This document shows, piece by piece, positions 1 through 63,663 of a stretch of DNA of 64,000 nucleotides. The notes beneath the pieces were generated by a model. It ran no database searches, was not told the DNA's origin, and saw only the letters and a program-made list of their open reading frames with translations. Each line of letters begins with the position of its first letter. The first letter of the stretch is position 1. Made by a program: the position numbers and the translations under genes. The DNA is taken from positions 4,223,624 through 4,287,623 of the forward strand of contig OX457036.1 of NCBI GenBank assembly GCA_949752735.1. The letters run 5' to 3'. The DNA is from Lumbricus terrestris (lineage: Eukaryota; Annelida; Clitellata; Crassiclitellata; Lumbricidae).

Positions 1-818
1 AAAGACGGAAGATCGGATAGTTTTGGATGGACGAGAGATACAGATAGAGAGAGACAAAGAGGGTAACAGAGAAGTATTGCATATTGCAGTGACTGTGACA
101 GAGAGACAGAGAGGCAGAGTGACGAAAGATAATACATCAAAACAGTAGCAGACAGACCAACGATTTGGTCATATTCTGAAAATAAATGCTAATGAAGTTA
201 GTCTCACCTTGTCAACTTGTGCCGTCGATTTTTTTAACCTTAGCGACCGCCATGATCAACCTTTAAGTTAGTCTGCATACCTTTAAATCGCTACTTAACT
301 GCGTTACATAAATAGACCCTAAACCACTTTTATGTTGCTCAGCTGCTTTGACTATTTCCCTTGTTTTACTATAATTCCCTCTTTAAATAATCAGATCTTA
401 TTCAAAAGCTTTATGTCGTTATTTCTTGTCACGTGTCCATGCCATGCGAAACTTCTTTGCCTGATCTTGTCAACCACTGTCTTCCTCTGTATTAGTTCCT
501 CCCTGGTCAGTGATCATCTCATTTCGAATATTATATTGTTTCTCCTATTTCTTCTCAGTATTCTCTCAGTCTCTTCTCATCATTTCTTCGCATGCACCAG
601 CATTCTGATCCAGCACAAGGAATGTCAAGGATCCATATCAAATATGTGCCGCGAAAACAAATGAGCCATACAGCGTCATCCCGTTCATAATTCTTCGTGT
701 ACAATTATTGCTTTAAATATTAGTTTGGTCATTCCAACGAGCGATCAACTATGCTATCTAATTATTTGGCTTTTGTTATCCAAATCCTAAATCCTTTATA
801 CCAAAATTTAAAATTGAA
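1..818. other. Non-coding stretch, no gene seen
   Basis: Apart from unit 1 I see no gene or named repeat. A 110-aa open frame at 332-664 is hydrophobic and low-complexity and has no family motif, so I leave it out. Confidence 0.5.
276..287 (-). promoter_or_regulatory. GGTGT unit 1 (variant)
   Basis: Minus-strand TTTAAAGGTATG. A TATA-like CTATTTATG (306-315, read on the minus strand) lies about 30 nt upstream. Downstream the minus strand reads AGGTTGATCATGG, resembling the unit at 39999-40014. Confidence 0.45.
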
Positions 819-833
819 TTAAAGGTGTTTAAC
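819..833 (+). promoter_or_regulatory. GGTGT unit 2
   Basis: ATTAAAGGTGTTTAACG is an exact AAGGTGTNTAA match. TTTATA at 795-800 lies 28 nt before the GG. About 40 nt downstream, GTGCTACTGTAACAAGC loosely resembles the start of block r1. Confidence 0.65.
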
Positions 834-1820
834 GAGAACGTAAACCAATAGTCGTTTGGTGACCGTGCTACTGTAACAAGCATGCATAGCGATGTTTGAC
901 GACCAACATTTTAATTAATGATACAATATCCAGAAGAGACAGGCAGGCAGACAGACAGCAGATATAAAGAGAAATATGCAGGGAGGCAGCCAGGAATTGA
1001 GGAAGATGAAAGGCAGAGGCAGAAGGATGGGACCGGGGACAGCTACAGAGAGCACAGAATCCAGTTGGAAAGAGAGTGAGTGGGGAGCGAGCAGTCGATG
1101 TCAACGACCATGCGGGCATTGGAATCTGACGTCACTGAAATACAAAAGTTCAAAAATTAGTCAGTTCAGGAATAACAACTTGTTATCAGTTCAATGGCGC
1201 ATAAAACCACGAATTGCTTATGCACGAGCACTCGTTAAAACGCCTTGCGAGGTTCCCTCTCAGAAGCGCTCCCGATTAAATGGACGCCTAGTCGATTGGA
1301 TTGGGTGCACCCCGGATGAGTTACTTATAACCTTGTTCACTTGAAGTCATTAGGTCGTCACCTGCGTTTTAAACGAACCTATTAAATTAAGTTGTGAAGA
1401 AATACATGTACATGAAGCCATGAATCACACAAGACAAATGCTTGAACACCCATTTCACCGCCGGTATCACTATTACATTATCTAAGCGTTTCGCCACATT
1501 TATAAGCAGAAAAAAGACTTCACTGGTTTAGTCAGATTCGTTAATACTGCATCATAACTAAGATGACTAACGTTTCCTCTTTTTCATCCAGCAATAAAAT
1601 TGACAGTTGTGGCGAAGACAGCACCCATTCGTAGTTCAGAGTAAGTCATTATTTTCCAACGTTGCCAGTTTAAAATTGGTGGACTGGAGGTTAAACAGGG
1701 TCGAGGTCATAAGCCTTCTGTCTTTTCCGAAACTTTTATATTTAGTTTAAACAATTTAATCGTCGGAAAGCAGAACAATTGTCCAGATGATCAGTGACAA
1801 CCTGGAAAATTCAAACTCTG
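834..1820. other. Non-coding stretch, no gene seen
   Basis: A purine-rich run at 975-1090 generates overlapping open frames on both strands, with no recognisable protein. No repeat family was identified. Confidence 0.45.
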
Positions 1821-1834
1821 TTTAAGCACCTTTA
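1821..1834 (-). promoter_or_regulatory. GGTGT unit 3, split by a piggyBac-like insertion
   Basis: Minus-strand TTAAAGGTGCTTAAA. The TTAA of this site is the target of the family D element, so the upstream (TATA) side now lies beyond 3066, where the minus strand reads GAATATGTAGC at about the expected distance once the insert is removed. Confidence 0.5.
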
Positions 1835-3066
1835 ACCCTCAAATGACCAACTGGGGTCCCTGGGGACCCCAGCACCGTTTCGACTCGTGTTACTTTTTTG
1901 CTATCCAATATTTTTTAACGACGTTTTATGAATTTGTCACATGGACATCGCTCACTGTTTACGTATAATTAAATCCGGTTTAACTTTTACGGTTATTTTT
2001 TAAATATGAAATATCTAGTGGGGTACCGCAGGACCGCAGCTTTATGATGATATTTCCTATGGAACCGAACGCTATTTTACGCAAAGATATCATGACAGTG
2101 AGAATTGGTCCAGTACAATTTAGTGGAAAAGAATCAATACAGATAATTCTGGAATAGATAGACGTTGGAAAATAACGAATAACGACCATGTCCAGGAGAC
2201 AATTTCGTGCATCATGAAGTACCGGTACATGAGATTTTACATCAAGGCAATTGAGCATCACGAAAAGACTGAACAACGACGAAGTTACTGCTTTCCGTGA
2301 CATCAGAAAAGTGTTTTCTGTTCAATTGAAAAAGCTTTTTTGTTGGTACAAATATGGGAGTGGATGAGGTTACCGTGACAGATGTAACTTCAGGCAGTAC
2401 ATAAAGTCCAAACCCAGCTGCAAGCTTTGATATCAAGGGGATCCAAACAATACAACCCCGCCCATTACCCTCTGCCATTACCCCCAGCCTCTGTTTGTTT
2501 ACATTTAGGTCCAGTGTATAAATGTATATATATATATGTACATAAATTCATACATACATGCATACTTGTGTGCATGTGTGTGTTTATGCATGTATGAAAG
2601 CTTGTATGTATGCATGTATTTATGTACACACCTACATACATGCACTGGACTTACATGCAAACAGAGGGAGGTAATGGCGGGGGTAATGTCCTACGGGGTA
2701 ATGGTGGGGGTAATAGCAGGGGGTCATGGGCCGGAAGGGTAATGTCCTATACCCCTTTTAAATCCATGCCAAAAACATAGTCCTACTTCCTCGCTATGGC
2801 TTATCCCGCATGCTATAGCTGCTTTGTAAGGCGTCCTTGTAACGGGATGGCTGTGTTACTGCGCTATATAAATTGTCCTGATTATTGTTTTTATTATTAT
2901 TACTAACTCATAGAAACAACTGACATTGCTTTTTAAGCATTTTACATATGTTACCTTTGACAATATTGACGCATCAAGCAATGCACGCGTTATTAATTAT
3001 TGGGGTCCCACAGGACCCCAGTTGGTCATATTAAGGAGCAAAATATGTTGGTCGCATGAGGGTTAA
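1832..3066. mobile_element. piggyBac-like element, family D
   Basis: A TTAA target duplication (1832-1835 and 3063-3066) encloses ends that read CCCTCAAATGACCAACTGGG at the left, with CCCAGTTGGTC and GAGGG at the right. Subterminal GGGGTCCC palindromes occur near both ends. TTAA targets and CCCT-type ends are typical of piggyBac. Open frames on the minus strand (1980-2478) show no recognisable transposase, so this is probably a non-autonomous or decayed copy. A second inverted repeat is nested inside. Confidence 0.75.
2455..2760. repeat. Nested inverted repeat with ATAC-rich centre
   Basis: The left arm includes CCATTACCCCCAGCCTCTG and GGTCCAGTGTAT. The right arm repeats them inverted, as ACTGGAC and CAGAGGGAGGTAATGG. 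The centre (about 2525-2645) is degenerate TACATA/TGTATG microsatellite. A GTAATGGNGGGG motif recurs several times at 2671-2755. Confidence 0.55.
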
Positions 3067-4143
3067 ATCCCTTTTCACTGATGCTACATATTCATACCTT
3101 GTGGCAAACAATGCGCTTCCTGGTGGTCCATGTAAAATCGACTTTTGTAGGGTGGAGGTAAACGACATTGGTCGACACAAGGTGTCTCTAATTTAATTAA
3201 ACATTTTCAGCGTGGTCCACGCATTACGTGCATCTACGTGCACGTGTTAAAATCTCCTGAAATGTCGCGTCTTCGTTGCTTATTTACGAGCGTTTTACGG
3301 GATAAAAGCTCCACAGAATAATTATTTATCATTCCCGAAAAAACTTACTCTTCGCCAAAGTCGTATAGAACCCCGAAATTGCTGCCTGGCTATACTATTG
3401 TTGTCACCCATTCAAACGAACAATTATGGTGATGGTGGGTAGCCTATCATACGATGCATTTAGTGCAAATTGAGCAGAACCAATGCCCGTTGAAAGAAGT
3501 GTATAGTTGCATTTTACTAAGTGATCGATTGTTATTGGACTAGTTATTTGGTTTATGCAACGATTGATTTTGATCTAAATAACTTAAACACCTTCATAAC
3601 GTTTTACACCAATAGAATACAATTAGCATCGGGAAAGTGCTATAATACATGTCTTGCAAATGCAATCACTGCAGAACATAAATGAATATAACCAAACAAA
3701 TTGATTTGCACATAAAAATGTTTTTACCATTGGACCTTTAACTTCGCCATTAATGAAACTTGTAACCTTGTAGTTCATGTTATTAACTGTTAACCATTCT
3801 GCTGTTAAATATGAACACTAATGACGATGAACAATAATATTATGTTAAGCCTAAGGCAACGAAAAACGACATTGTTATGACAACGTTATATGGTGTATTT
3901 GGACGCCATGAATTCATTATTACTGCACTGTATAAGCTGTAAATTGTCGTCAACGGCCTTTGATGTCAAACGACGACGTTGAACTTTGGTTTAAATGAGT
4001 GCTATAATACGCCACAAAACTTTCTGTTGTCATAGACTCTGTCAAATATAGATCCATCCATCATGAACGTGTGTGGGGGGATTTATAATTGTGAATAATT
4101 CTGTAATGGGTGAAACAGACATTGAATAGAATGATCTTGATCC
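3067..4143. other. Non-coding stretch with diverged r2 copy
   Basis: No gene seen. Minus-strand 3998-4062 is a diverged r2 block. At about 3937-3985 the minus strand carries AACGTCGTC and CCGTTGACGAC, closely matching the hairpin downstream of the unit at 62171. Confidence 0.5.
3583..3597 (-). promoter_or_regulatory. GGTGT unit 4
   Basis: Minus-strand ATGAAGGTGTTTAAG, an exact core match. The TATA box is weak. Just downstream on the minus strand, GTTATTT and AAATAAC could form a short stem around a 26-nt loop. Confidence 0.5.
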
Positions 4144-5662: not shown

Positions 5663-6116
5663 TGCTAAATGATGGCTGAATACTTTGATTTTCATATTAA
5701 TGTTGAATATCTAATCTGCTTGTGATTTTATTGGTGAAATATGAATATTGAAAATTGGTTGCAAATATGAGATTATGAGAAATGATAAGAATTGATGTCA
5801 ATCTAACTAAGTCGATGACACGTCATGTGAACTCCATGAAATGTCTAAATTAAGAATAATAACAATACATAAGTGTACATATAATAATACATTATGTGTG
5901 CACGTGTACAAGCTACTTGGAATGGGCTTGCTGTGGAACTTAGCCTATAATAGTGCACAGGTCTCACTCCACAATGTTCTTTTCTAGTCTTAAACCTTTT
6001 ACTATTTGAAATAGGTTGAGTTTAAGCGCGTCTGATCAGATAATCTTCAAGAGACGCTGCAGAAGTGATCCTAAAAGTAAATAAACGAATGATAAGTTGA
6101 ATGATGCAAGTCTCTG
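5663..6116. other. Non-coding stretch, no gene seen
   Basis: A+T-rich sequence without recognised repeats after the hAT target duplication. Confidence 0.4.
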
Positions 6117-6130
6117 TTAGACACCATTTT
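6117..6130 (-). promoter_or_regulatory. GGTGT unit 5 with r1 and r2 upstream
   Basis: Minus-strand AAAATGGTGTCTAACAG, with TATAAA (complement of 6151-6156) about 31 nt upstream. It is the only unit here with both conserved blocks upstream in the same orientation: r2 (6231-6310), then r1 (6353-6463). Confidence 0.65.
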
Positions 6131-6230
6131 AATAATATATTAAAATGCAATTTATACCCATTGCCATCATCTGGACTTTCGATAATAAAAAAACGACCCT
6201 ATATAAAAACTGGTTTAGTACCTTGCTCTT

Positions 6231-6463: not shown

Positions 6464-7524
6464 CGCTGCCGCTGTTTAGTGCCATTGCTGTAAAACGTAG
6501 ACCTTCAAAGCTATTATACTCGTCTTCGAGTTCTCTGCTGAGAGAGAGCAGATCCAAAAACGTACAATGGCAACATTCGTCCCAATGCTTAACCTTCTTT
6601 TTCAGTTTCCTGTAGTCTTCCATCATCATCCTATCCAACAGCATCTGTCTGTGTCTTTCTCATTGATCAATTGCGGTACCTTTTTGTTATGGTCAATCCA
6701 ACTGATCTTCTCCGTCTTTAGCCACCCCTATATTTTAAAAACCTCCGGTCTTCTTACATCTTCTTGTCTTATGGTCTAAGTATTTGATCCACAGAGTCAG
6801 TATTTTTTATTATCTTGAGATTTCTACTCAATCCTCATTCTGCATCTCCTTACTAGTCATAAAAGCATCTTAACCCCCATCGCTATTCTTCTCTATGGCA
6901 CTTTGCACCTGTTGTAATTGAACACCCCTCCAAGTAAAAGAACTCTCTAACCTGCTCTACTTTCTTTCCGTAAACTATCTTTCTTTTACGGTTGTTTCAT
7001 TTTCCTGATAATCTCCGTTAATTTTTTTCTTTTTTATGTTTATTTTCTCCGTATTATGCAGAAATAACATTACGACGAAATCTTTTCCACCTTGTCGTAT
7101 TCCTCGCCCGATTACTTTTGGTGCCGAGTATTTTCTTCTATTTTTATTATGATCTTTTGACCCAAATGCAAATTTCTTATGCGTTTTTCATAAAGTCTGT
7201 CCCCAACCGTATAAGTGAATGCAGCAGTTATTCCAGTCTTCTCCGTCAAATGCCTTTCGTCATCAGTTCCCTTCTAATTGTTATTTTTCATCTCATCGAT
7301 GGTTGAAAACACATCTTCCTTCAATGCCTCTGGGCGCAGGTCATCATTGTCGTCTGTAAGTGAATCACCACTTATCTTGTATCACTTATACACCCCCAAA
7401 TAGCTATTTCACTAGGCTATTTAAACAAAATTTACGCTCATTGGTTATCTAATGTCTATTACATTTTGATTATTTTATTGTTAGGTTATTGACATCCATC
7501 ATCGGTTTCCTTTCTTCTGGATAC
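6464..7524. other. Non-coding stretch, no gene seen
   Basis: A pyrimidine-rich + strand (CTTCTT runs) gives short serine/leucine/phenylalanine-rich open frames, with no protein family recognised. Confidence 0.4.
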
Positions 7525-9127: not shown

Positions 9128-9512
9128 GTATAATAGTGTGCAGGGTAAGATGGATAATTGAGATTCAAGCTTGCCACAACTTAAGATATCGTTAGAAAAT
9201 TCGAAGCGTTGTTAAATGAAGAAAAGTTCCGGGAAACATCTTCTCTGGGGCACAAGGTCGTAACATATAGAGACGTGTGTATAAATTTACATTTGACAAT
9301 TTAATCGCATTCTAATAATAGTCACCCAATGGCAGACTGGCATATTATTGGCTAATGCAACGTTCAACTTGAACACCTTTATAACGTTTACCACATGGGT
9401 TATAAAAAACATGCATGAGAAAAAAATTATGAATTATTTTAGTACACACGTCCTTTCGATCATCTAAATGATTGTATAATGATCATGCGGAAAATTATAT
9501 AGCGCTAGTTTT
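9108..9512 (+). repeat. Duplicated segment (copy at 16432-16830)
   Basis: From ATATCCTATGGTGTAGGACG to AAAATTATATAGC the two copies are nearly identical, with a few substitutions and small indels. Each contains one GGTGT unit. Homology ends at the TTAA where family A element A1 is inserted. Confidence 0.85.
9368..9382 (-). promoter_or_regulatory. GGTGT unit 6
   Basis: Minus-strand ATAAAGGTGTTCAAG. TTTATAAC (complement of 9399-9406) lies 30 nt upstream. Downstream, AATAATA and TATTATT can pair around a 24-nt loop. The paralogous unit at 16693 is unchanged in the motif. Confidence 0.6.
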
Positions 9513-11095: not shown

Positions 11096-11216
11096 TTTTT
11101 CTTTTAGATGAAAGCGTAGATATAATTATAAAATAAATTTATAGTGAGAGCATCAATGGAGTTCATGGCATCGAAATTTCTGATCCCAGGTAAATATCAT
11201 CATTACAAGTTCTGAA

Positions 11217-11232
11217 ATTAAGGTATATTAGC
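11217..11232 (+). promoter_or_regulatory. GGTGT unit 7 (variant)
   Basis: ATTAAGGTATATTAGC, with TAAATATC about 31 nt upstream. Weak by itself; supported by the r2 copy just upstream. Confidence 0.4.
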
Positions 11233-11850
11233 AGCGCCACTTATCAGTTTACTTAGTCCATTATGTTGCCATTTTCGTGGGTAGCCTACTACAGAGAAAT
11301 CGACGACAACTTACGTCTTGCTTAACTTACTTGTAAGGTAATTCGTCAAAGCTTCTGTAGCCAATGACTTTAGGGCAATCGCCTTCGAAATTTACAAATT
11401 CCTAAGGAGCAAGTCGATTGTCGAGGAGCAGGGTAACAGCTTATTCATGACCGCTGTATCAAGTCAGACGGTTTGTCGAAGAAATGGTTGTCCGTTTGGC
11501 AGAGTAGGCTATATAAGGGACAGCTTAGATGTTCAGGCAATATGTTATCCTGTCGAAGGTGTAAAACGGGTTAAAGATCTCATTACCAGTGTGACCCATA
11601 ATTATAGGCTCTTCTCTCATTCACATGTTTCCTCCGGTTTTTTCACCTAGTCACTGCTGATTGCCGTTAAAGTGAGAATAATTAACTAGATAAACTGTAT
11701 GACGTGTTGTTCAGTTACTGTGGACGTTTTGCAATAATTATGTAAGTGGCATCCAAAGTGGTTCTCGTGGATTAGATTACTTATTTTGCATTTTGATATT
11801 ATGCTCTGTATACCGTATCAATTTACGAATGACATATCTTCACAAACATA

Positions 11851-11887: not shown

Positions 11888-12235
11888 ATATATACATTCA
11901 TTCTGGTGGGGATAATTTTGACCAACATGATGAATTTCAGCGCATAACAATCTCCTCATAGTTTGTCAATCGTTCTATTCAGCCGACTCTCTCTCTCTCT
12001 CTCTCCATCCATCTCCATATGATCCATGTCTCCGATTTGCAATACCAGTACATCTTAGTGACTTAGTCCATATCATAAAGTCGACCATAATATTATTCGG
12101 GTCTGATCAATACATTTCTTTTAAAGTTATTATTTTGTTGGTTGACGTAGACTATAAGTCTATTTGGCAACACGACTAGCAAATACTCATGGGTTTTTTA
12201 AAAAAGAAATTTATATAACTTTTATGATTTAGTTT
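11233..12235. other. Non-coding stretch with (TA)n and (CT)n
   Basis: It contains a TA dinucleotide run at 11852-11894 and a short CT run at about 11988-12004. No gene seen. Confidence 0.5.
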
Positions 12236-12249
12236 TGAAGGTGTCTTAC
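12236..12249 (+). promoter_or_regulatory. GGTGT unit 8
   Basis: TTGAAGGTGTCTTAC, with TATATA at 12213-12218, 27 nt before the GG. Confidence 0.55.
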
Positions 12250-12560
12250 TTTGCCAGGTATTGCAAATCGAAGTCTAAATACACAGCGTCGCCAAGCATC
12301 GTTTAAAATCATCTGGAAGAAAAGATTATTAAAATCCAATACTGAAGCTGAGTCCTTTATCAATTGCCTAACCAGTCAGATTTGGAGTAATGTGCAAAGT
12401 CAAAATAATAGATTATCAATTATTTCATTCTGGGCTATTAACACGCGGTTCATCTACTCCATTTGAATTGTACAATGTACATGAATGGATAGCCTACACA
12501 ACTAAATAGGTCATATCACACGGTTAAATAATCACTGGCTTCGTGGAATGAAAATATGCC

Positions 12561-13597: not shown

Positions 13598-14093
13598 AAT
13601 GCTGTCGCGGCGATAAGGTTACGACTCCGTGATAGCAAATCCCATTAGCGTCGTCCAACATCTTCTTTCATGCTGTTATAATATTATTACGTCAAACTGT
13701 TTAAATGGTGCAAACGATATTCCAGCATCTTGAACAGTTTTACGTTTGATGTATTCTCAGTAAAACATAATTTAAAGGTGTCCATGAAAATCGCACATTA
13801 TTATTGATCAGCGATGTCATAAGGCTGTATTGATCACGTCGATTTTCCGAATTCTAAGGCAGATTGTTGTCTTCATTGTTTGACCTTCATTTTATCATTC
13901 ACTTCTACTACTGCTATTATTCCTGTATAATGGTAGACTCATTGACATTAACGCAACAGGGTAGACACCAGCTGCCGTCCAGAGTCAGGATAGCGAAAAA
14001 AAATTGTGAATAAAGTAAGAAGCAGAGGCGTGAACTGAGTATTAAGATTTGAGCATAAAATTATTTTACTGTTGATGACAACAGAAATCTGTG
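13598..14093. other. Non-coding stretch with a weak GGTGT unit
   Basis: No gene seen. TTTAAAGGTGTCCATG at 13771-13786 is a partial motif match without a clear TATA box. Confidence 0.4.
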
Positions 14094-14270: not shown

Positions 14271-14835
14271 GACGACATTCGACGTTCCTCTCTCTGTAGG
14301 GGATATGTATGACCAGCATATGATCCGAAAATATAAACTTATATAGCATTTTATGCAAAGAATTTTACGGTGTGTAAGGCGAACGGCGAAATATATTGTA
14401 ATAGTATTGCCAATTCCATAGTATTATAACGGAATCATACGACACCAGAATTTGATGTCGTCGACAGGCTTTAATAGACTTTCGTATTTTTTCCTTACTG
14501 TGTATTTCCACGGAAAGTGTTCATGATTACTACGTTACATGTCACCATTCGAACAGGGCAGATAGCTTGGCGATGGATCCCCCGCTGTTGAATTGATTAA
14601 AGAGCGAGCAGGGTCGGTTCCATGGCACAAAATGTCTATGAAACTTCTAAGTTCTTTGCGTTTTTTCATTTATTCATTTTATCATTCATTCTATTCAGAG
14701 AATTTATACAGCGACTCTTCAACAAACCTACACGTAGCGTGTGTTTATTGCTAATATGAGATGAATGTTTATTGTTGATACTGTAGAACAGCAGTCCTAT
14801 TGAACTCACATACTTTGATATAACGCATCACTGCA

Positions 14836-14850
14836 CTTAAGCACCTTTAT
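14836..14850 (-). promoter_or_regulatory. GGTGT unit 11
   Basis: Minus-strand ATAAAGGTGCTTAAG. CATATAGC (complement of 14868-14875) lies 30 nt upstream. Confidence 0.5.
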
Positions 14851-15198
14851 ATTGTGTTATACATGTGCTATATGTTATCAGGCATCAGAGATAATTGTAT
14901 GAAAAACCATTTAATTTACTTTTTTACTCACGGTGCATAATGAAAATTATCTGCAACCAATCAATGAACAGCTAGATACATGTTAAAATAATATATTTGC
15001 GTTAGATTTGGTCAAATATTATTCAAGGTCGATAAGTATTAGCAGAAACTTTATCTAATCTCACTATCTGGCGTGTTTTCTTTATTTTCTTGAGAGCATA
15101 AGATACCGAGGAGCTTCAAATCACATTAGTTGTGAGAAGACTTCGTTTTCAGAAATCGACCGCATTCACTGAATCGAATGTATGTATGAATAGTTGGT
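14851..15198. other. Non-coding stretch, no gene seen
   Basis: A+T-rich, no repeat recognised. A decayed LINE-tail-like segment (TTTATACAGCGACTCTTC) lies just before, at about 14700-14720. Confidence 0.35.
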
Positions 15199-15421: not shown

Positions 15422-15725
15422 TAATAATGAAACATAATTTTGATGATCTTATCGATTAAGAGTAAGTAAAGAATTTTACAAATGAATAGCAATTTCGGAT
15501 TGAATTGGGATCAGGCGACAGCTAACCAATTATGATATGAATAAATATTGGTTGCCTATCAAATCGGTTAAATAATCGATTAGAATCTGATCCAACTGTG
15601 TGACAATTCCGTCCGAGGTCATTAATAATTCTTGTTACAGAAGAGCAAGACAGTATTCATTATCCACGATGTGACAGCAACGTTGTGGTCGATAAATGTT
15701 GTATATACAACGCTTATCGAATCGA

Positions 15726-15741
15726 ATAAAGGTATTTAAGC
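15726..15741 (+). promoter_or_regulatory. GGTGT unit 12 (variant)
   Basis: ATAAAGGTATTTAAGC, with GTATATAC at 15701-15708, 30 nt before the GG. Confidence 0.5.
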
Positions 15742-16189
15742 GGACAATGGATTCTTACAATAGCAGGCATGTCATTTTAATGTTCTGCGACATCGTGTGA
15801 CTACTGTTCCTCCAACGGTCTACTTCGTTCGTTTCTTTATTTGTACATTTATGACAAACCGTCAGAACTGATTTCTATAGCAGATCATTTGATTTAAAAC
15901 TGATCATAAGAATGATTTGTGTTGTAAATGGACAGACACATTGTTGTTTTAAGTTATTCTAAATCTTCTTACAACATTGGAATATAGAAAGCAGAATTGC
16001 CTGTGAAAAATCCTCATCAAAACGGGTGTCCCTTTTTTCAAATAGAGTTGCATTTTCGCTTGTTCGGATGAAGGTTAAATAGCGTGGCGTCCAATCAAGC
16101 ATGAGCGCCAGCGTATTGGGGCAAGAGGGGGCACCTGCCCTCTGGAAAATCGGCACCTATTTGTAGGACTACACAGATACGGTTTCCTT
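15742..16189. other. Non-coding stretch, no gene seen
   Basis: No family motif in the short open frame on the minus strand (15959-16156). It ends in GAAACC, next to the shared repeat. Confidence 0.35.
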
Positions 16190-16431: not shown

Positions 16432-16830
16432 ATCCTATGGTGTAGGACGTAGGTATAATAGTGTGCAGGGTAAGATGGATAATTGAGATTCAAGCTTGAC
16501 ACAACTTAAGATATCGTTAGAAAATTCGAAGCGTTGTTAAATGAAGAAAAGTTCCGGGAAACATCTTCTCTGGGGCACAAGGTCGTAACATATAGAGACG
16601 TGTGTATAAATTTACATTTGACAATTTAATCGCATGCTAATAATAGTCATCCAATGGCAGACTGGCATATTATTGGCTAATGCAACGTTCAACTTGAACA
16701 CCTTTATAACGTTTACCACATGGGTTATAAAAGACATGCATGAGAAAAAATTATGAATTTAGTACACACGTCCTTTCGATCATCTAAATGATTGTATTAT
16801 GATCATGCGGAAAATTATATAGCCCCAGTT
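16432..16830 (+). repeat. Duplicated segment (copy at 9108-9512)
   Basis: Second copy of the duplicated block. Here the TTTTTTAAG at its right end has no family A insertion. Confidence 0.85.
16693..16707 (-). promoter_or_regulatory. GGTGT unit 13 (paralogue of unit 6)
   Basis: Minus-strand ATAAAGGTGTTCAAG, with the same TTTATAAC box 30 nt upstream as unit 6. Confidence 0.6.
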
Positions 16831-16985: not shown

Positions 16986-17555
16986 TGATTGTATTTTTTT
17001 AAAGCATTTAAGGAAATGTTTTATCGTAGTCATTTTTGGAATAGATCCGTAGATTAGCAAATGTCCAAGTCCATTAACAAGCGAATAAAGTACAATAATC
17101 ATAAAAATGAGCTTTTCTATATCGACCTGTGGTTTTGACCCTGTTCATTTTTGAAAGGGTCACTCCACTCTCTGCCTTAAGAACATAAAAACCTTGCTTG
17201 TTCAGCCGTGGGGTGTAGGGACCCGCTTGATGGTGTCCTTCATTGAATAGACTCTGTATAAAATCTGCGAAATAAATAGTAAATAAAATATCTTTAGCGA
17301 ATTCAACGGTTCATATACTACATCACCCACTCGGCTAGTGTCCGACGTCCGTTATAACGGACAGTATGGAAAGTACTCAAGTTAAAGTACATGTAGGTAT
17401 CGATAAATTAATTCCCAGCCATTTTGCTGCACCAAGTTGTTGAGATTACTGAAACTACAACCTAATTTGTTGGGTTTTACCACTTTTAGGCACAATTGAG
17501 TAAATTAACACACTAAGAATTTCAAGAAATATATTATATCGACGTTAGTGAAGAC
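16986..17555. other. Non-coding stretch, no gene seen
   Basis: Around 17160-17230 there is a faint LINE C-terminal-like trace (CACTCCACTCTCTGCC...). Otherwise nothing recognised. Confidence 0.35.
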
Positions 17556-17571
17556 TTTAAAGGTGTGTAGG
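17556..17571 (+). promoter_or_regulatory. GGTGT unit 14
   Basis: TTTAAAGGTGTGTAGG, with ATATTATATC at 17531-17540, about 29 nt before the GG. Confidence 0.6.
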
Positions 17572-18088
17572 CAGAATGGATTGGAAATGGGGTTGGCACT
17601 CGTCTCCGAAAGCCTCTACCACTCTAATGTCCATTGCAGAGTGCATGGTGGACGACTGAGCCCTCGCCGGAATATGCGAGTCGAGAGACGAAGAGTCGGA
17701 AGGACGGACGGTGGAGGCCACCGACGATATAGGAGATGGAGTCTGCGTAAAAGCACCGTGAGGAAGGCAAATGGAAACCAACTCTCTAAACTTACCGAAA
17801 ACACACTGAAAATGACGAAGGAAAAGAATGCAAGAAAATAGCGTAAGAATGTCGTCTTGTAAGTTGAAACCTGCCAATGGGCAGATAACTTAAGAAAGAT
17901 TTGACTGTGTATAATGCTAGAAGACCTACGAGTCGCCGTTACTTTGAAATGCAGTTTATTGTATTGTATTGTATTGAAGCACTGTTGCACTCTGCTGTCC
18001 TATCCGATCTTACGCGGCAATTAGAGCCTTGCCATACACCAGACTAGTGCAGATTTGATTTCTTAATGCGTCAGTGTATTGGCTGGCA
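17572..18088. other. Non-coding stretch, no gene recognised
   Basis: Overlapping open frames on both strands (17548-17990) are moderately G+C-rich and arginine-rich but match no family I know. A (GTATT)n run occurs at about 17958-17974. Confidence 0.35.
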
Positions 18089-18295: not shown

Positions 18296-18651
18296 GGCTG
18301 GCAGCGATGTTCTCTGCGGCATTGAGAAGGTTCTAAGATTATTTTTGCATTTTCATTGCAATGTACGTCTGTCCTTAGACACCACTTTTTGTAATCGAAC
18401 GAATTTCAATGCAACCGCTCTTGCTACGACCGCATTACGTGGGGCTGTGGCTTTTATCGATTGCTTCATCAATGCAAATTAATTTTACAAACCTGAATAA
18501 TTTCGGAGCAAATAAGATTTGGAATATTTCAAACTCCGTCCATCCACACTTTGGATATCATCTTGCTATAAAGCAAGGTGATATAGACGCAAACACCTAT
18601 GAAACCACAAGAAGTCGCAACACTACTACATATAAATCATGCGACGATCAG
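18296..18651. other. Non-coding stretch, no gene recognised
   Basis: A 104-aa open frame (18409-18723) runs through the GGTGT unit and has no family motif. I treat it as chance. Confidence 0.35.
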
Positions 18652-18666
18652 CTTCAACACCTTTAC
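18652..18666 (-). promoter_or_regulatory. GGTGT unit 15
   Basis: Minus-strand GTAAAGGTGTTGAAG. CTTATATAAG (18683-18692, self-complementary) lies 28-31 nt upstream. Downstream, GTCGCA and TGCGAC form a 6-bp stem with a 24-nt loop. Confidence 0.6.
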
Positions 18667-18723
18667 ATGGTTAATCACAGTCCTTATATAAGCAATTTTT
18701 CGGTTCATGTAGTTATTTTATAA

Positions 18724-19386: not shown

Positions 19387-19401
19387 TTTAGACACCTTGA
19401 A
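19387..19401 (-). promoter_or_regulatory. GGTGT unit 16 with r2 upstream
   Basis: Minus-strand TTCAAGGTGTCTAAATGG, with CATATAG (complement of 19418-19426) 29 nt upstream. r2 copy d ends about 80 nt upstream in the same orientation. Confidence 0.65.
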
Positions 19402-19478
19402 CTATGATGAATCTGCACTATATGAAAAGACGTGGCGACATAATTATTGCTGAGTTAACGTTGATGCAAAAGAAGAAA

Positions 19479-44009: not shown

Positions 44010-44022
44010 CGACACCTTTTAA
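44008..44022 (-). promoter_or_regulatory. GGTGT unit 30 running into r2
   Basis: Minus-strand TTAAAAGGTGTCGATGG, with CTAAATAG (complement of 44038-44045) 29 nt upstream. The GATGGATGG that starts the r2 block follows the motif directly. Confidence 0.5.
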
Positions 44023-44189
44023 TTTGTAACACACTGGCTATTTAGTGCTATCAATTACACCATTCAGGATTAAAAACAAAAGTAAAAATTATTGAAAATA
44101 TTACAGATTATTCAAACGATTGAACGCATGAAATTGAATGCCATTATTGGGGTGGAGTGGTCGCTAACCACTATTGCCATTTGCCACTA

Positions 44190-45175: not shown

Positions 45176-45240
45176 GTAGGCTCTTCAGCCATAAGAAGTT
45201 AATTATTGTTGTAATTTATATAGAGTCGGTCGCATCCTTT

Positions 45241-45258
45241 AAAAAAGTGTATAAGAAG
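45241..45258 (+). promoter_or_regulatory. GGTGT unit 31 (variant lacking one G)
   Basis: AAAAAAGTGTATAAGAAG, with TTTATATAG at 45215-45223, 30 nt upstream. Shares TATATAG(A/G)GTCGGTC with unit 21. Confidence 0.48.
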
Positions 45259-45669
45259 ATCACTAGCTGCCCGTTTGTTTATTAAGATTTTCTCGCTGAC
45301 AGTGACAATGAGTTTGACTGTTGGAAATTCAGTTGAATTTTAGCTAATTAATGCGATAAATATGAGAAGTCTACAATAACGACAGGAAGAATTATAGAGA
45401 GAATTGTAAGTTACCTATGCAGTGCATGCTAAATTGTCCGGTACGCTGGCGCCATTTATGCTGGCCTAGCGGCAGACTCAGGTATAATAGCGTCCCTGGA
45501 TACGATTATTGTGCGGCGTTGCTAAGATGATTAATTTATGCGTAAGACGCTTTCGTGTCTGTTTATGTGTCTCTCTATCTGTCCTTCTCTGTAGGTCTAT
45601 GTATCTGTCGGTCACTCTGCCTTTCTTTTATATTTCATTTGTAAACAAAATGGATAAACTGACCGGTTT

Positions 45670-48742: not shown

Positions 48743-48798
48743 ATTAGAATTGCGTTTGGAATAAAAATGTGGTTTAAGTGCATTAAGGTACCAAGCTG

Positions 48799-48815
48799 TT
48801 TAGCGGTGTCTAAGC
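48799..48815 (+). promoter_or_regulatory. GGTGT unit 32 with r1 upstream
   Basis: TTTAGCGGTGTCTAAGC. No good TATA at -30 (AATAAAAATG is at about -45). CAGTTTAACGACAGTG, the first bases of an r1-like block, follows 25 nt later. Confidence 0.55.
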
Positions 48816-49127
48816 AATGGTAGTAGTTTCAGTTTAACGACAGTGTTCAACAACAAGCTCTGCAGCAATCTCTTTGATATAGACTTGGAGAGTTAAGACT
48901 AAAACAAGATTAGTAGTTGTCAGTGTTTAGCAGCATACTGTTACCACCGTGGAAATTAACGACTATAATTTAACTCACATACAATTCTTTACTCACAAAC
49001 AATTCTTTGTTGTTTCCCATTCGTACACACTCAAACAGCCATCAGTTAGAATAGGGATATAGATTACGGTTCTGATTGTTTGAAAGTAATGGCGAACATG
49101 CACATGTAGCGATAAAATTAAACGTTT
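48816..49127. other. Non-coding stretch between two units
   Basis: r1-like start then unrelated A+T-rich sequence. The two units are 331 bp apart, the shortest same-strand spacing among typical units. Confidence 0.35.
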
Positions 49128-49143
49128 CGAAGGTGTCTAAGTG
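49128..49143 (+). promoter_or_regulatory. GGTGT unit 33
   Basis: CGAAGGTGTCTAAGTGG is an exact core match. TATA weak (GATAAAATT at about -20). Confidence 0.52.
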
Positions 49144-49299
49144 GTATGCAAGTTTTCTTAGTTTTTAAACGATATTTTGTATTAAACGTCAGTTTATTGC
49201 TGCAGACTCATTACTGAGGTTCATTCGCAACATTCCTCAGAAGATATTCGTCTGGAAAAGTGTCGGTTAACTGCTATGATGTGTCGTTGCTACGTGTGC

Positions 49300-54596: not shown

Positions 54597-54708
54597 TTTC
54601 TTATAATAACAAACTCTTTCCTTCCTATGAAGCGACTCAAGAAGAACCACGGTACAATTAACCATCACAACAGAAATTACACAATATATAGCGATAGATG
54701 ATGACTAT

Positions 54709-54725
54709 TGAAAGGGTGTCTAACG
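54709..54725 (+). promoter_or_regulatory. GGTGT unit 34
   Basis: TGAAAGGGTGTCTAACG, with ACAATATATAG at 54681-54691, about 30 nt upstream. Confidence 0.62.
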
Positions 54726-54957
54726 AGGACATGATATTAGGTAATTCTATTGTTCTATTTCATATTAAACGTTGGCTATTTTGTGGTCAATAATTCATCA
54801 TCGTCGTCGTTCATTATAATCTTGTTCTTTTGTTTTACAAAATAGACATTGGTAATTAATTGCAAAGTAAATGCATTCATTGAACAACAGAGGATCTGAC
54901 GAAAAAGAAGGATTTGACTAGGAATGTTATCCGGAGGAAGGAAATCAAGTGTTCTAA

Positions 54958-55216: not shown

Positions 55217-55704
55217 ATTGAGATGCAATAATGCGTCGGATGCAGCAAATCAGGTCACGGACAACTTTGACACATTTGAAATAAAATTGTCCTATACTGT
55301 ATTAATATAATTTTCGTTCAACGGATGGCTTAACGTTTTAATATCCATTCTCATGATGTTAGCCATCCTTACAACTCGTTCTAACCAGATCATCCTGGAT
55401 CTTCTTAATTTCGACCATCTCTTTCAAAAGTCCAATCAGATTGCATAAAGTGGGCGAGTAAATGGGGAGGCGCGATTTTGAACACTGCATCATAAGAACA
55501 GAAGCGCTTCCAGTGGATTCTGTGATAGATGATTTCATTATAATTTTTTTATAAAGCTTTCACGCATGACAGGAATTAACGACAAGAAAATTCTGACTGC
55601 ATGTCTGTTACGTAAGCGACCATTTCCAGGGAATTATAGTAAGACGACTGAGTCAACCAAACTGCTACATAACCTAGCTTAATAAATGAGGATGCGAGAG
55701 TCAA
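55217..55704. other. Non-coding stretch, no gene seen
   Basis: No recognised feature. Confidence 0.3.
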
Positions 55705-55727
55705 TTTATATAATGCTTTAGATACTA

Positions 55728-55744
55728 TTTAAAGGTATGTAAGG
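55728..55744 (+). promoter_or_regulatory. GGTGT unit 35 (variant)
   Basis: TTTAAAGGTATGTAAGG, with TTTATATAATG at 55705-55715, 28 nt upstream. Confidence 0.6.
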
Positions 55745-55904
55745 AGTTTAATTTCATTAGCATAGGCCCTATATATATTTTCATAATGTAACCAAATCGT
55801 ATAGCGCGGCCTGGACGGTCCTCTCCATATGGCATATAATTTCATCAGTTTTGCTGTCAGCTCTTTACTTCTCTCTGTCGCTGTGTGTCCCTCTCTTTCT
55901 ATCT

Positions 55905-56006: not shown

Positions 56007-56091
56007 GTCTGTCTCTCTGCCATATTCTGGCTACTGCATCATTAAAATGCTGGTTGTCAAACAGCGCTGTCAATAGCTTGGAACACTTCAG

Positions 56092-56107
56092 TTGTACACC
56101 TTTAAAA
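56092..56107 (-). promoter_or_regulatory. GGTGT unit 36
   Basis: Minus-strand TTTTAAAGGTGTACAAC, with TACATATG (complement of 56122-56129) about 30 nt upstream. Confidence 0.5.
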
Positions 56108-56450
56108 TGAGATTGAAATGTCATATGTAAAATTGAATTACTTAATTGACAAGTACTCGCGTTGTCATCTGTTATCCTGAGTCTCTCCATTGCACCATTT
56201 ATCCTTCTCCTGTGGCTCAGCTGCCATTATAATGAATGTGGACAAAACCCATGGACCCCGAGGTTCAAAGGGCTTCCGAACATTTTAAGAAAATTTCACA
56301 CGCTTTTCCGTGACTCTGCCGTTTACGACCATTGTAGTCTGTAGGCAAGAGAAGCATCAAGATGCGATACAAAAGATCACAGACATTGGTTACGTATGTG
56401 TGATGTATGTGTATAGGACTTTAGGGGTCACTTTATGTTTCGAAGTAAGC

Positions 56451-58541: not shown

Positions 58542-58566
58542 GTATATATTGCGCCGCTAAAACATA

Positions 58567-58582
58567 CTTAAAGGTGTCTTTG
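58567..58582 (+). promoter_or_regulatory. GGTGT unit 37
   Basis: CTTAAAGGTGTCTTTG, with GTATATATTG at 58542-58551, 29-31 nt upstream. Confidence 0.6.
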
Positions 58583-59035
58583 AGGTGTGTTAAATGAACG
58601 AATGGTACGTGATTTTAGCAACTTATTATGACAACAACTGTCTTTGAAGACCATATAAATTTTTGGGCTTAAGTGACCGCCTACGATTCCGATGTTATTC
58701 AGGCAAGCGTAAACTTGTAAACTGGCCGTTTTGTCATAGAATAACTCGTTTAAAGTCTAAGGTACATTACAACTGCCCATTCAGAATTTTCTACAGTTAG
58801 ATTTAAATAATTTATGTTTGTTTGTGAATACTGCTGCAGCACATTGTATAATTTTTCTGACGGATCATCTTATCGAATAAACATTATTAACTGAATCGCA
58901 ATTGCTGTTAAACACTGAATATTAGTGAGTCTGGGAAATGCTGGTTTGTTGACTTTAAATGTTGTATATTGGACTCAAGGAATTCTGTGCTTTACTCCAC
59001 AATGTCTGCATAAATTTGCACTGCAATCTTTGATT

Positions 59036-59124: not shown

Positions 59125-59231
59125 AAGGTACTTTCATACGACGACTAATATTTATTGGAATATAAAAGTGGCTGGTCGTTGTGGAAGAAAAAAACCACCG
59201 TATTACGCCTTATATATAATCTATAACCATG

Positions 59232-59251
59232 TTTTAACGGTGTATAAATGG
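59232..59251 (+). promoter_or_regulatory. GGTGT unit 38 with r2 upstream
   Basis: TTTTAACGGTGTATAAATGG, with TTATATATAAT at 59210-59220, 28 nt before the GG. Confidence 0.62.
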
Positions 59252-59410
59252 TCAGATGGATACCTACGCCAAAATGCGGAGAGCCATTAATTTTGTCAAT
59301 AAAAAGTCATCAGATTTTTTCTGGCGAAGATCACTGACAATTTTGCAATATTGGCCATGAGATGAATTAAACGTTGAAGAATTGAAATGATATAAGAAAT
59401 ATCGTATCCA

Positions 59411-59425
59411 CTCGTACACCTTTAT
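59411..59425 (-). promoter_or_regulatory. GGTGT unit 39
   Basis: Minus-strand ATAAAGGTGTACGAG, with AATACATAGC (complement of 59441-59450) about 30 nt upstream. Confidence 0.48.
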
Positions 59426-59689
59426 ATCACTGAATACGACGCTATGTATTCGATGTTTCTTATAAAATTTTGGTTCACTTATCAGACCGTAATTGACTAT
59501 TTTAATTGTTGCAAAACGTCACACTGTCAAATAAACAAATATTACTGTAAATTATATGTTATTTTATTTTGCAAATTAGACGTAAGTGAATGAGTCGTGA
59601 TGGAACTATGCTGTAAAAATTATTTTCATGGGGCATTCATCCTTTCTACTCATCGTATTATGATTAAACTCTAACCCAAAGGTTCATAT

Positions 59690-60210: not shown

Positions 60211-60221
60211 CTGTATAATTA

Positions 60222-60292: not shown

Positions 60293-60626
60293 CAGCCTGA
60301 GATTAATTAATTATTATTATTATAGTCCTACAACATAGACTAGAGGCCTATTACGGGAGTGCTAGCTATTGCGTTAAAGATATGCAACGAACGACGAAGA
60401 AGAAGCGGGTTGTAGGATTATAAATAGCAGTCTTAGTAGTAACTAGTGGCTAGCGACATCTAGTGGCTTCCAACGCTATTATCAACGACCTTAGATTAAG
60501 GAACTGTAAAGGTACAAAGTTTCGACAATTGGATGGCAGATTTCGATCGATTGCGTTACTACTGAGAATCATGTCATTACGATGCTGGTATTTGCTGCTT
60601 TATATTTATAAATTTATCTTCTTATA

Positions 60627-60645
60627 GAAGAAGGTGTGTAATCCA
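60627..60645 (+). promoter_or_regulatory. GGTGT unit 40 followed by a 15-bp hairpin
   Basis: AGAAGAAGGTGTGTAATCC is an exact core match. TATATTTATAAATTTA (60601-60616) covers the TATA position. A strong stem-loop begins 8 nt after the motif. Confidence 0.65.
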
Positions 60646-60652
60646 GTGCACG

Positions 60653-61437: not shown

Positions 61438-61586
61438 GCCACGAACCTTATGAAGACGAATGAGAGGCGAATTGCAATAATCAAATCGAGAACATACAAC
61501 ATTCATCCAATTTAGTTTTCGTTTGATTAATACTCGTTTTATTCCGGTTTCGATTGCTGCAACTTTTTTTTCGTTTGCTTTCGTTA

Positions 61587-61602
61587 ATGAAGGTGTCTAA
61601 TG
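61587..61602 (+). promoter_or_regulatory. GGTGT unit 41
   Basis: ATGAAGGTGTCTAATG is an exact core match. No clear TATA. Copy d of r1 is about 170 nt upstream once the MITE and its duplication are removed. Confidence 0.52.
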
Positions 61603-62143
61603 TTTCTTAATTGCCTTTTTCTAGTTTCAGTTGACGAAAACAACAGTACAGATGACCAATCAGCCGAATTTCCATCCGAAATATTACGTCTCCATACTCT
61701 CAGTCTCTCAATGATAACAGTGATAGTATCAACGGCCCACTAACACACCTTCAAAAACGTTCTAAATTCCAATATTTTATAATTGAAATTCTTGGTATTA
61801 TAAGAACATTCCATTAATTGAAAGGTAGTATGTTAGTAGTTGAACTTTTCGTCTAGTTTTCTGTCCCAACAGCAGGCTTATGATCATGGTCATTCCTTAC
61901 GAAGCTGGTCGCGTCCTTAAGATTCCGATAATTATTCATCTGCCATTATCTAGTACAGCATCATCTGTCGCGTTCATTATCTTGTTTGCATTATCCTTAA
62001 ATTTTCTTACTTTCGAATCTTCTTGCAGCGTGTGTCAATTCCACTTTTTTCGTCGCTCAATTATCAGGTTTCTTTCTTCTCAAGTCATTCCTAACACTTC
62101 TGCAACTTTTCGTCTGTCAACATAACCAATTAGCAAATCCCGT
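61603..62143. other. Non-coding stretch, no gene seen
   Basis: The 81-codon open frame at 61880-62125 has no recognisable motif. Confidence 0.35.
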
Positions 62144-62170
62144 TAATATATTTAATTAAGTAATAGCGAT

Positions 62171-62186
62171 CTGAAGGTGTGTAATC
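62171..62186 (+). promoter_or_regulatory. GGTGT unit 42
   Basis: CTGAAGGTGTGTAATC is an exact match. TAATATATTTAA at 62144-62155 lies about 30 nt upstream. 60-100 nt downstream, GTCGTC and GACGAC flank CTGTGACATCAATGGCCGTT, nearly the same as at 3937-3985 (minus). Confidence 0.65.
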
Positions 62187-62404
62187 AAACGCAAAGAAAG
62201 ACAGGATGCAAACAGTGATAAGACTTATTAATATTCAGAAGTTTAACGTCGTCCTGTGACATCAATGGCCGTTGACGACAAAACAGAAAATTAAAAAAAT
62301 GCATTAAAGATAAATTTCTAGCATACAACAAAAGCTGACAAAAGTGATTCAACAAAGTTTATTGTCATCATCAACTGCTTCTACGACTACAGCCGATGCA
62401 AAGT

Positions 62405-62940
62405 GAGATTTAAAGGAGAGGTGGGAGAATGTGACAGGAGTACGACAAGGATGTGTATTATCACCATTGATTTTCGCCTTGGTTGTGGATTTGGCGATGC
62501 CGGGCTGAGGTAGCCTAGGTGAATGAGCAAGGTTGACTTATCTCGACTTTGCAATTAGCAAATCCCTTTAATATATACTTATTTAATAGCGATTTAAAGG
62601 TGTGTAATTCAGATATGTATTATGATAAGGAATTATGATATTGTCCTGTTTAGACGATACATGGAGATGCATGGAAGGACTTATATCCAAAACGCAAGCC
62701 GAGGCGACAAAAATACAACTTGCCATTAACCAAGAGAAGACAAAGATCATGAAGTTTGGAAGATAGAATGAGGATGATAGGATTGTGATCGACGGCAGAG
62801 CGATGAAAATAGTGGACTCTTTCTGCTACCTAGGCAGCCAAATGGCAGTAGATAGTAGCTGTGACAGGAAAGCAAAGATGCGCATAGGGAAGGCAAACTC
62901 TGTTTTGGGAGGCTTTATAAAGTTATGACAATCTCATCTT
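62405..62940 (+). pseudogene. LINE reverse transcriptase fragment split by a GGTGT unit
   Basis: VTGVRQGCVLSPLIFALVVD (palm region), then ARLTYLDFA stops at 62551-62553. After about 81 inserted bases the similarity resumes with DIVLFRR. Later come INQEKTKIMKFG and DSFCYLGSQMAVDSSC. The inserted piece contains unit 43. The active-site FADD box is exactly what the insertion breaks. Confidence 0.78.
62593..62610 (+). promoter_or_regulatory. GGTGT unit 43, inside a LINE
   Basis: TTTAAAGGTGTGTAATTC is an exact match. AATATATAC at 62570-62578 lies 29 nt upstream. From AATTAGCAAATCCC to GGTGTGTAAT it is homologous to the unit at 62171. Confidence 0.68.
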
Positions 62941-63648
62941 GACCCGTGCATTTGATACTAGGCAAACCTGAATTGATTGCTATAAGAATTATTGCTAAAG
63001 CTTCCTGTAATACTCAGCCCTTTTATCGTCAACTGAACTTCCTAAGATAGCCCAAATTAATGCAGACAGGTACAATGATACTCTGCACATGTACAATAAA
63101 TTATTATGACAAAAACTTCTTCCACATGCATTCTCATCCTATTTCAGGGAACTATTCGTGTCGCCACGACTCTCACCCAATTGAAATTCAAATTCGTGCA
63201 GACAAAATGAATAATTAAAACAAACGAGATTATCAAGCACAGTTTAATTCTATTTATTTTGAGTTAAGTGGCAGATATCCCAATAAACCGCCATTGAATC
63301 TCTTTTTTCCTTACCTGTCACCATGTTATAGCAATGAACACGGTTTTCGGTTGGCTATTATAGTACATGCATGCACCATTATCAGCATCACTTCCATCGT
63401 TTGGCCTGTTGTTCCTTAACATACGCAGCAACGCACTGTGAATCATCATAATAATTGCCAACCACCATTAATCTCTGCGTGTACTGATTCTGAGTGTATC
63501 AGTGTCTGTCCACTTTTGTTCACGAGATCAATTATACGCAAAATGTTGAATTGAATTGCAATTAAATTTGATAAACGAAGAAACTAATCGACACCTATTC
63601 CAATTACGTTCCGTGTTTTACTACTTTATAGCAGTGATGAATCGCGTC
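62941..63648. other. Non-coding stretch, no gene seen
   Basis: No recognised feature. Confidence 0.35.
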
Positions 63649-63663
63649 ATAAAGGTGTCTAAC
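63649..63663 (+). promoter_or_regulatory. GGTGT unit 44
   Basis: ATAAAGGTGTCTAACTGGG is an exact match. TTTATAG at 63625-63631 lies 28 nt before the GG. GGATGGATC and GTTTAACGACAG follow within 40 nt. Confidence 0.68.

Follow-up and report, generated by a model that had tools for sequence, protein, structure and literature searches.

From the analysis presented below, we propose that a dense array of short motifs in a 64,000-nucleotide (nt) stretch of animal DNA, hereafter the window (contig C1, positions 4,223,624-4,287,623, of a 1,056-Mb genome in 331 contigs), probably represents individually transcribed PIWI-interacting RNA (piRNA)-like genes outside the nematodes that use RNA polymerase II (Pol II) promoters of the small nuclear RNA (snRNA) type. 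At the level of sequence, this proposal is supported by the identity of the motif with the proximal sequence element (PSE) of snRNA genes, by the orientation and spacing of the promoter elements, by the clustering of the units, by an enrichment of TRNT and YRNT at the predicted start, and by the lack of any excess of open reading frames (ORFs) or RNA structure.

In this model, SNAPc would bind CTTASACACCTTTAAAT, the PSE on the strand opposite AAGGTGT, and TBP would bind the TATA box, the first T of which lies 22 nt beyond the PSE reference base. Pol II would start ~51 nt after this base, as at the U2 genes of the same genome. The product would be short, non-coding and unstructured, with a pyrimidine-purine step at its start and a U two nucleotides downstream; most likely, it would be a piRNA precursor, one per locus, that is trimmed at its 5' end like nematode type-I (21U) piRNAs. 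The units would be crowded on both strands into multi-megabase clusters. From these features we infer occupancy by SNAPc and Pol II, short capped transcripts, PIWI loading and silencing.

The motif array in the window

A first-pass annotation of the window had described a recurrent short motif on both strands, and this array is real. A PSE matrix detects 56 sites compared to 1-7 in each of ten simulated windows, a count for which the matrix was trained on the window itself and transposon copies were retained. The fourteen exact matches to AAGGTGTNTAA counted earlier were recovered, with 0-2 in each of 20 Markov-2 simulations, and a position weight matrix fitted to the window gave 55 sites above 14 bits compared to 0-3 per Markov-3 window (n = 10). 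After iteration, 69 sites scored above 9 bits, from which 21 (transposon copies, low-complexity and weak sites) were dropped by hand to leave 48; removal of 16704, the segmental duplicate of 9379, left 47, including the marginal sites 4154 and 17904 that are absent from Table 1. The excluded sites include those of a transposon family (23160-25812, 9868-10283 and 50066-50478), copies of which hold AAAGGTGTTTTATTTT and inflate naive motif counts. The duplication (9105-9404 and 16430-16729, 99% identical over at least 300 nt) copied one unit along and is an example of local unit multiplication.

The units lie on both strands with a median spacing of 950 nt, and the gaps reported at 20.3-27.2 and 49.1-54.7 kb are present as spacings of 6,995 and 5,583 nt. 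The conserved element, at ~33 bp, is longer than initially described. Relative to the first A of AAGGTGT, column profiles of the 48 sites reveal, besides the core, a TATA box spanning -28 to -22 and weaker signals, namely GT (-15/-14) and GA.C (+14 to +17). The spacer between TATA box and motif, previously regarded as non-conserved, is weakly conserved. A TATA box lies 20-24 nt from 28 of the 56 PSE sites (a control offset gave 2/56, and simulated windows 0-1 each), and on the transcribed strand 22 of the 47 sites have a TATA score above 5 (3.5 expected). Thus, the fixed spacing of motif and TATA box noted in the first-pass annotation stands, while the polarity assigned to the pair has to be inverted, as set out next.

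Identity and polarity of the motif

Read on the opposite strand, AAGGTGTSTAAG is CTTASACACCTT, the PSE of the U6 and U2 snRNA genes of the same genome. These genes gave 16 matches for U6 (seven full-length at 115-118 bits) and 46 for U2, of which the promoters of four were compared. A matrix built from the window alone was slid along the regions upstream of these genes. For the sum of six U6 promoters, the score was highest (39.6) at -57 relative to the U6 start, with -58.7 at the next position, a mean of -142 and a standard deviation of 35; for the sum of the four U2 promoters, the peak (48.1, compared to -27.4 at the next position) was at -51 relative to the U2 start. One U6 copy (L019) is without such a promoter and was excluded from the sum; in single U6 genes, the -57 site ranked first in 4/6. 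Examples are GTTAGACACCTTCATTT...TATATATG at a U6 gene (L022) and TTAAGACACCTTTTTAT...TATAG at a U2 gene (L107). The peaks at U6 and U2 genes are position-specific; the array motif is thus the host's own PSE, and the array units very probably carry snRNA-type promoters.

In the U6 and U2 genes, the PSE lies upstream and the TATA box between PSE and start, and we assign this polarity to the array units. On the transcribed strand, the order is CTTASACACCTTTAAAT, ~16 nt, TATATAAG, and the first T of TATA is sharply placed ~22 nt from the motif. With a TATA matrix, the score was higher on the AAGGTGT strand in only 10, 12 or 17 of 47 units (9, 8 and 15 columns, respectively).

Genome-wide abundance and clustering

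Genome-wide, motif density is above control and the sites are clustered. The exact core AAGGTGTNTAAG has 4,502 matches (2254 forward and 2248 reverse) compared to 830 for the reversed control (398 + 432), and a strict PSE plus TATA pattern has 118 (54 + 64, some sites being counted twice) compared to 0 + 0. Among the 100 matches listed for the latter, ~70 of 86 distinct places fall into blocks that total ~41 Mb of the genome (Table 1), as tallied by eye with blocks drawn after the places were seen. Among the matches listed for the exact core, the number of places on C1 increases from 4 up to position 1.7 Mb to 31 at 3.5-3.88 Mb. Because the genome excess is ~3,670 exact cores and only 6 of 48 window units contain one, extrapolation from this one window suggests ~29,000 units in the genome.

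Five 10-kb stretches held 27 PSE sites, 19 with TATA, densities that are biased upwards because the stretches were chosen around known motif places; 13 loci taken for their U6 or U2 matches (40.7 kb) held 9, three of which belong to the snRNA genes themselves. In viral contigs, the PSE-TATA pattern gave seven single matches (L001-L007). A run of closely similar U2 genes at 29.54-29.81 Mb of contig C9 forms a tandem-like U2 cluster.

Promoter spacing and the choice of polymerase

U2 genes are transcribed by Pol II and U6 genes by RNA polymerase III (Pol III), and in vertebrate snRNA genes a TATA box favours Pol III. In the genome analysed here, the two classes differ in geometry. At U2 genes, a TATAG/TATGTAAG box starts at +22 from the PSE reference base and transcription at +51, while at U6 genes TATA starts 27-29 nt and transcription 57 nt after this base. 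Among 101 non-redundant array units with TATA above 3 bits, for which offsets of 18-33 were permitted, TATA starts at +21 to +23 in 71 and at the U6-like +27 to +29 in 5. With 22 nt from PSE to TATA and ~51 nt to the predicted start, the array units have the U2 values, unlike U6. This spacing argues for a U2-type geometry and, therefore, for transcription by Pol II. The array also shares the PSE core ACACCTT with the U2 promoters; it differs from them in its stronger TATA box, in the absence of an snRNA downstream, and after ACACC, where it has TTTAAAT instead of TTTTTAT or TTTTTTT. The U6 promoters have a similar PSE core plus a TATA box, but with an additional 6-7 nt between the PSE and both TATA and start.

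Alternatively, the units could be Pol III type-3 (U6-like) genes for other small non-coding RNAs. A PSE with a strong TATA box is the vertebrate Pol III combination, the unit at 62174 has a U6-like start sequence (GCTAATTGGTT), and TTTT first appears late downstream of the predicted start (median 159 nt compared to 89.5 nt in random sequence; 39 window units). We nevertheless consider this alternative unlikely: the PSE-TATA and PSE-start spacings fit U2 and not U6 of the same genome, the unit bodies are neither shared between units nor structured, and T-runs have no peak at a fixed distance besides an A+T-rich stretch near the start, although a terminator at variable distance is possible.

Predicted start and product

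The predicted start was analysed in 199 non-redundant units from ~317 kb of DNA of this genome, including the window, of which 157 had TATA above 2 and 220 nt available downstream. TRNT occurs at +25 to +32 from TATA 112 times (53 expected, z 8.1; control windows at most 78), the strongest enrichment among the degenerate tetramer classes ranked there, and is found in 52% of units compared to an average of 29% in control windows. Similarly, YRNT occurs 155 times (97 expected; control windows at most 120). T is enriched at R+2 (47% compared to 31%), R+1 and R+4 are flat, and TRNA, TRNC and TRNG are not enriched at the predicted start. By subset, TRNT was counted 19 times in the window (mean 9.0, maximum 16) and 75 times in other contigs (32.9, maximum 48). 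In nematodes, piRNA precursors start at YRNT, two nucleotides ahead of the 5' U of the mature piRNA (PMC6436959, excerpt). The predicted start of the array units thus appears to share this YRNT feature of type-I loci, with significance in two of three subsets. In 98 units, two further words are enriched in the stretch from TATA to the start, namely TTTCG at +8 to +21 (12 compared to 1.0 expected) and AATTG at +18 to +35 (13 compared to 2.5).

Two classes of product were rejected. The longest ORF from the start region does not exceed the random expectation on either of the two sides of the units, which speaks against protein-coding genes; and RNA from the transcribed side is less structured than random (z +0.19 compared to -0.41), so that structured RNA genes as a class do not account for the units. 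No matches to Rfam at gathering cut-offs were found in the window. Only 18 of 1,081 pairs of transcribed sides scored at least 40, 16 of them via a hairpin family described below (f1) and one via a twister repeat. Three matches to the type-P1 twister ribozyme (Table 1) score below the Rfam gathering cut-off, and diverged copies of the same repeat occur elsewhere; truncated twisters have been described at the 5' ends of RTE retrotransposons (PMC7761336, excerpt).

A piRNA is, in our assessment, the best reading of the product and a probable one. SNAPc-driven short RNAs of another kind, e.g. of another Argonaute class or short capped RNAs, would have the same promoters and clusters, and the promoter evidence would fit them equally, PIWI loading being a deduction. 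We regard them as improbable because the YRNT start, the clustering, the diversity of unit bodies and the antisense f1 copies all suit piRNAs.

The f1 hairpin family and remaining alternatives

f1 is a family of hairpin RNAs of ~90 nt. In an alignment of 11 sequences, six of which are near-identical, 5 of 11 pairs are changed on both sides and covariation exceeds that in all 500 shuffles. Eleven copies in the window have E values below 1e-9, and a search of 83 loci gave 39 matches with an E value of at most 0.01. Of 45 copies (50 minus 5 near locus ends), 30 are antisense to a unit and start no more than 400 nt downstream of its PSE, and 2 are similarly placed in the sense orientation, with ~10 expected each way from their density; three units hold two of the antisense copies each, and the copy at 3990-4064 contributes to both counts. 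The 83 loci were, nearly without exception, selected around known motif places, which biases the proximity of f1 upwards and leaves the 30:2 ratio unaffected. At seven closely similar loci on contig C14 (L023-L029, 9.1-12.7 Mb), f1 and an internal U6 fragment are fused, and a PSE-TATA unit in antisense orientation follows. Because f1 and U6 are in the same sense in these fusions, the modelled f1 strand seems to be the RNA strand. The f1-bearing units may, therefore, give transcripts antisense to a small mobile RNA, which would be in keeping with piRNA-type loci. The antisense bias could also result from targeted insertion of the element. The f1 core word had no match in the viral and prokaryote collections.

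The occurrence of f1 at many units, its fusion to U6 at the seven loci and local duplications such as 9379/16704 could suggest that the units are remnants of a mobile promoter-bearing element, i.e. a short interspersed nuclear element (SINE) derived from snRNA, or retrocopies. The first-pass annotation had raised an old element of this kind, which is not borne out for the whole set: beyond promoter and f1, the units are mostly without common sequence, so that the homologous bodies of a SINE or mobile family are seen only in the f1 subset. Moreover, an upstream external promoter is not normally carried by an element copied through RNA, and the distance to f1 varies from 4 to 396 nt. This origin is, thus, very unlikely. 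Other readings that were considered and dropped are GTGTSTAAG as a 3' box and sites for T-box factors. The polarity initially proposed, with TATA upstream and AAGGTGT at the start site, is almost certainly wrong, because genuine U6 and U2 genes have the element upstream in the other orientation and TATA polarity and spacing favour the opposite strand, even though the TATA-to-motif distance would suit a Pol II initiator too and weak conservation reaches +18.

Comparison with nematode piRNA loci

The motifs of nematode piRNA loci derive from the snRNA/SNAPc motif (PMC6436959, excerpt). Because the array motif is the snRNA PSE, the idea in the first-pass annotation of many small units with one core promoter, laid out as at nematode type-I piRNA loci, is supported by sequence in its promoter and layout. 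Like nematode type-I loci (21U; Ruby motif, USTC/SNPC-4), the array has individual short PSE-related promoters in thousands of units, megabase clusters, a YRNT start and diverse non-coding bodies (PMC6436959 and PMC11262695, both in excerpt). Each unit appears to combine one short promoter with a non-coding, unstructured product, and megabase clustering on both strands is observed. By contrast, the array does not have a Ruby motif without TATA: in place of the GTTTC half-motif, it has the full PSE of the U2/U6 kind, CTTASACACCTTTAAAT, plus TATA. Also unlike type-I loci, its clusters lie on at least five large contigs, and its products are predicted. In Plectus sambesii and P. murrayi, the piRNA motif is near-identical to the SNAPc motif of snRNA genes (PMC6436959, excerpt); they are nematodes, and their piRNA loci are without TATA, as described for P. 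sambesii in the same paper.

The U6 locus L018 contains an exon for dynein regulatory complex subunit 4 (DRC4/GAS8; PF13851, E 7e-24; PDB match, 5e-18). This is a motile-cilium gene, and nematodes are not known to have motile cilia, which makes a nematode host very unlikely. Among the matches listed from open-licence PubMed Central, there was no array of small RNAs with SNAPc/snRNA promoters outside nematodes.

Several observations weigh against piRNA-like genes on Pol II promoters. The main counter-argument is the TATA box itself, which by analogy with vertebrates would be a sign of Pol III, and which sets the array units apart from the P. sambesii loci. No termination signal was found in the units. 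In the U6 gene L018 the -57 site ranks only second, and in L016 it is tenth of 135. As for the start, the +25 to +32 window was picked after the columns were seen, the TRNT count in the other loci of C1 (18 compared to a mean of 12.3, maximum 23) falls short of significance, T is also enriched at R+3 (42% compared to 28%) in a region that is T-rich, the starts of U6 and U2 are themselves not YRNT, and the dip in GC content 26-30 nt past the putative U is weak (0.32 compared to ~0.37).

Features of the window

Predicted units and neighbouring features are listed in Table 1. A dispersed element of ~1 kb or more is present in three copies, two of which hold internal telomere-like AACCCT repeats that adjoin GGGTCCACTATTCCGA repeats.

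Table 1. Predicted PSE units (PSE coordinates, first T of TATA, predicted start), f1 copies and repeats in the window, and genomic blocks of PSE+TATA matches
Feature	Position	Strand	TATA	Start	Remarks
PSE unit	265..290	+	307	~336	
PSE unit	815..840	-	800 (TATAAAGG)	~771	
PSE unit	1814..1839	+	none		
PSE unit	3576..3601	+	3618 (weak)	~3647	
PSE unit	6109..6134	+	6149 (weak)	~6178	antisense f1 and twister-P1 match downstream
PSE unit	7378..7403	+	7418	~7447	
PSE unit	9361..9386	+	9401	~9430	duplicate of 16686-16711
PSE unit	11213..11238	-	11196 (weak)		antisense f1 downstream
PSE unit	12231..12256	-	12217 (TATATAAA)	~12188	
PSE unit	13768..13793	-	13751 (weak)	~13722	
PSE unit	14360..14385	-	14345 (TATATAAG)	~14316	
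PSE unit	14829..14854	+	14869	~14898	
PSE unit	15722..15747	-	15707	~15678	
PSE unit	16686..16711	+	16726	~16755	
PSE unit	17553..17578	-	17540	~17511	
PSE unit	18645..18670	+	18685 (TATATAAG)	~18714	
PSE unit	19380..19405	+	19419	~19448	antisense f1 downstream
PSE unit	20248..20273	-	20231 (weak)	~20202	
PSE unit	27232..27257	+	27270 (weak)	~27299	
PSE unit	29590..29615	-	29574 (weak)	~29545	antisense f1 downstream
PSE unit	30548..30573	+	30588 (weak)	~30617	two antisense f1 copies downstream
PSE unit	34505..34530	-	34491 (TATATAAG)	~34462	
PSE unit	35039..35064	-	35024	~34995	
PSE unit	38117..38142	-	38102	~38073	
PSE unit	38792..38817	+	38832	~38861	
PSE unit	39992..40017	+	40033 (TATAAAAG)	~40062	
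PSE unit	41725..41750	-	41710 (weak)	~41681	
PSE unit	42111..42136	+	42153 (TATAAATG)	~42182	
PSE unit	43061..43086	+	43103	~43132	
PSE unit	44000..44025	+	44039	~44068	
PSE unit	45237..45262	-	45222 (TATATAAA)	~45193	
PSE unit	48796..48821	-	48780 (weak)	~48751	then twister-P1 match 48745-48677
PSE unit	49123..49148	-	49108 (weak)	~49079	
PSE unit	54706..54731	-	54690	~54661	
PSE unit	55258..55283	+	55300	~55329	
PSE unit	55725..55750	-	55712 (TATATAAA)	~55683	
PSE unit	56084..56109	+	56124	~56153	
PSE unit	58564..58589	-	58550	~58521	diverged antisense f1 downstream
PSE unit	59230..59255	-	59216 (TATATAAG)	~59187	antisense f1 downstream
PSE unit	59404..59429	+	59443 (weak)	~59472	
PSE unit	60624..60649	-	60610 (TATAAATA)	~60581	
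PSE unit	61583..61608	-	no clear TATA	~61542	
PSE unit	61733..61758	+	61776 (weak)	~61805	
PSE unit	62167..62192	-	62150	~62121	start near GCTAATTGGTTATG, resembling sequence before U6 start
PSE unit	62590..62615	-	62577	~62548	
PSE unit	63645..63670	-	63630 (TATAAAGT)	~63601	
f1 copy	6224-6316	-			antisense to unit
f1 copy	11000-11096	+			antisense to unit
f1 copy	19478-19571	-			antisense to unit
f1 copy	29365..29458	+			antisense to unit 29590-29615
f1 copy	30621-30714	-			antisense to unit
f1 copy	30716-30808	-			antisense to unit
f1 copy	58454-58548	+			antisense to unit
f1 copy	59032-59125	+			antisense to unit
Twister-P1 match	6350-6418	+			E 3.6e-10
Twister-P1 match	14157-14225	+			E 1.3e-11
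Twister-P1 match	48677-48745	-			E 4.8e-6
Dispersed element	20541-21945				AACCCT repeats 21048-21264
Dispersed element	35625-36964				AACCCT repeats 36268-36457
Dispersed element	56450-57453				
PSE+TATA block	C1 3.1-5.9 Mb				matches listed
PSE+TATA blocks	C13 2.6-8.7, 41.1-43.0 Mb				matches listed
PSE+TATA blocks	C14 7.5-13.0, 41.5-43.1 Mb				matches listed
PSE+TATA blocks	C15 2.8-16.5, 35.8-37.7 Mb				matches listed
PSE+TATA block	C17 35.2-40.2 Mb				matches listed

Implications

On balance, we lean towards the view that a non-nematode animal makes piRNAs from tens of thousands of single, TATA-bearing Pol II genes of the snRNA type in megabase clusters. If so, either piRNA production has enlisted the snRNA machinery on two occasions, or transcription with one promoter per piRNA predates the nematodes. 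With such an array in an unrelated animal, the origin of the SNAPc-driven small-RNA system would become testable. Units with antisense f1 would then be captured guides against an element. The combination of a PSE array, U2 spacing and YRNT would provide a signature by which such loci could be recognized elsewhere from the genome alone. This would open comparisons of PSE arrays across phyla, of TATA and spacing as determinants of the polymerase, and of how clusters gain transposon-targeting sequence.

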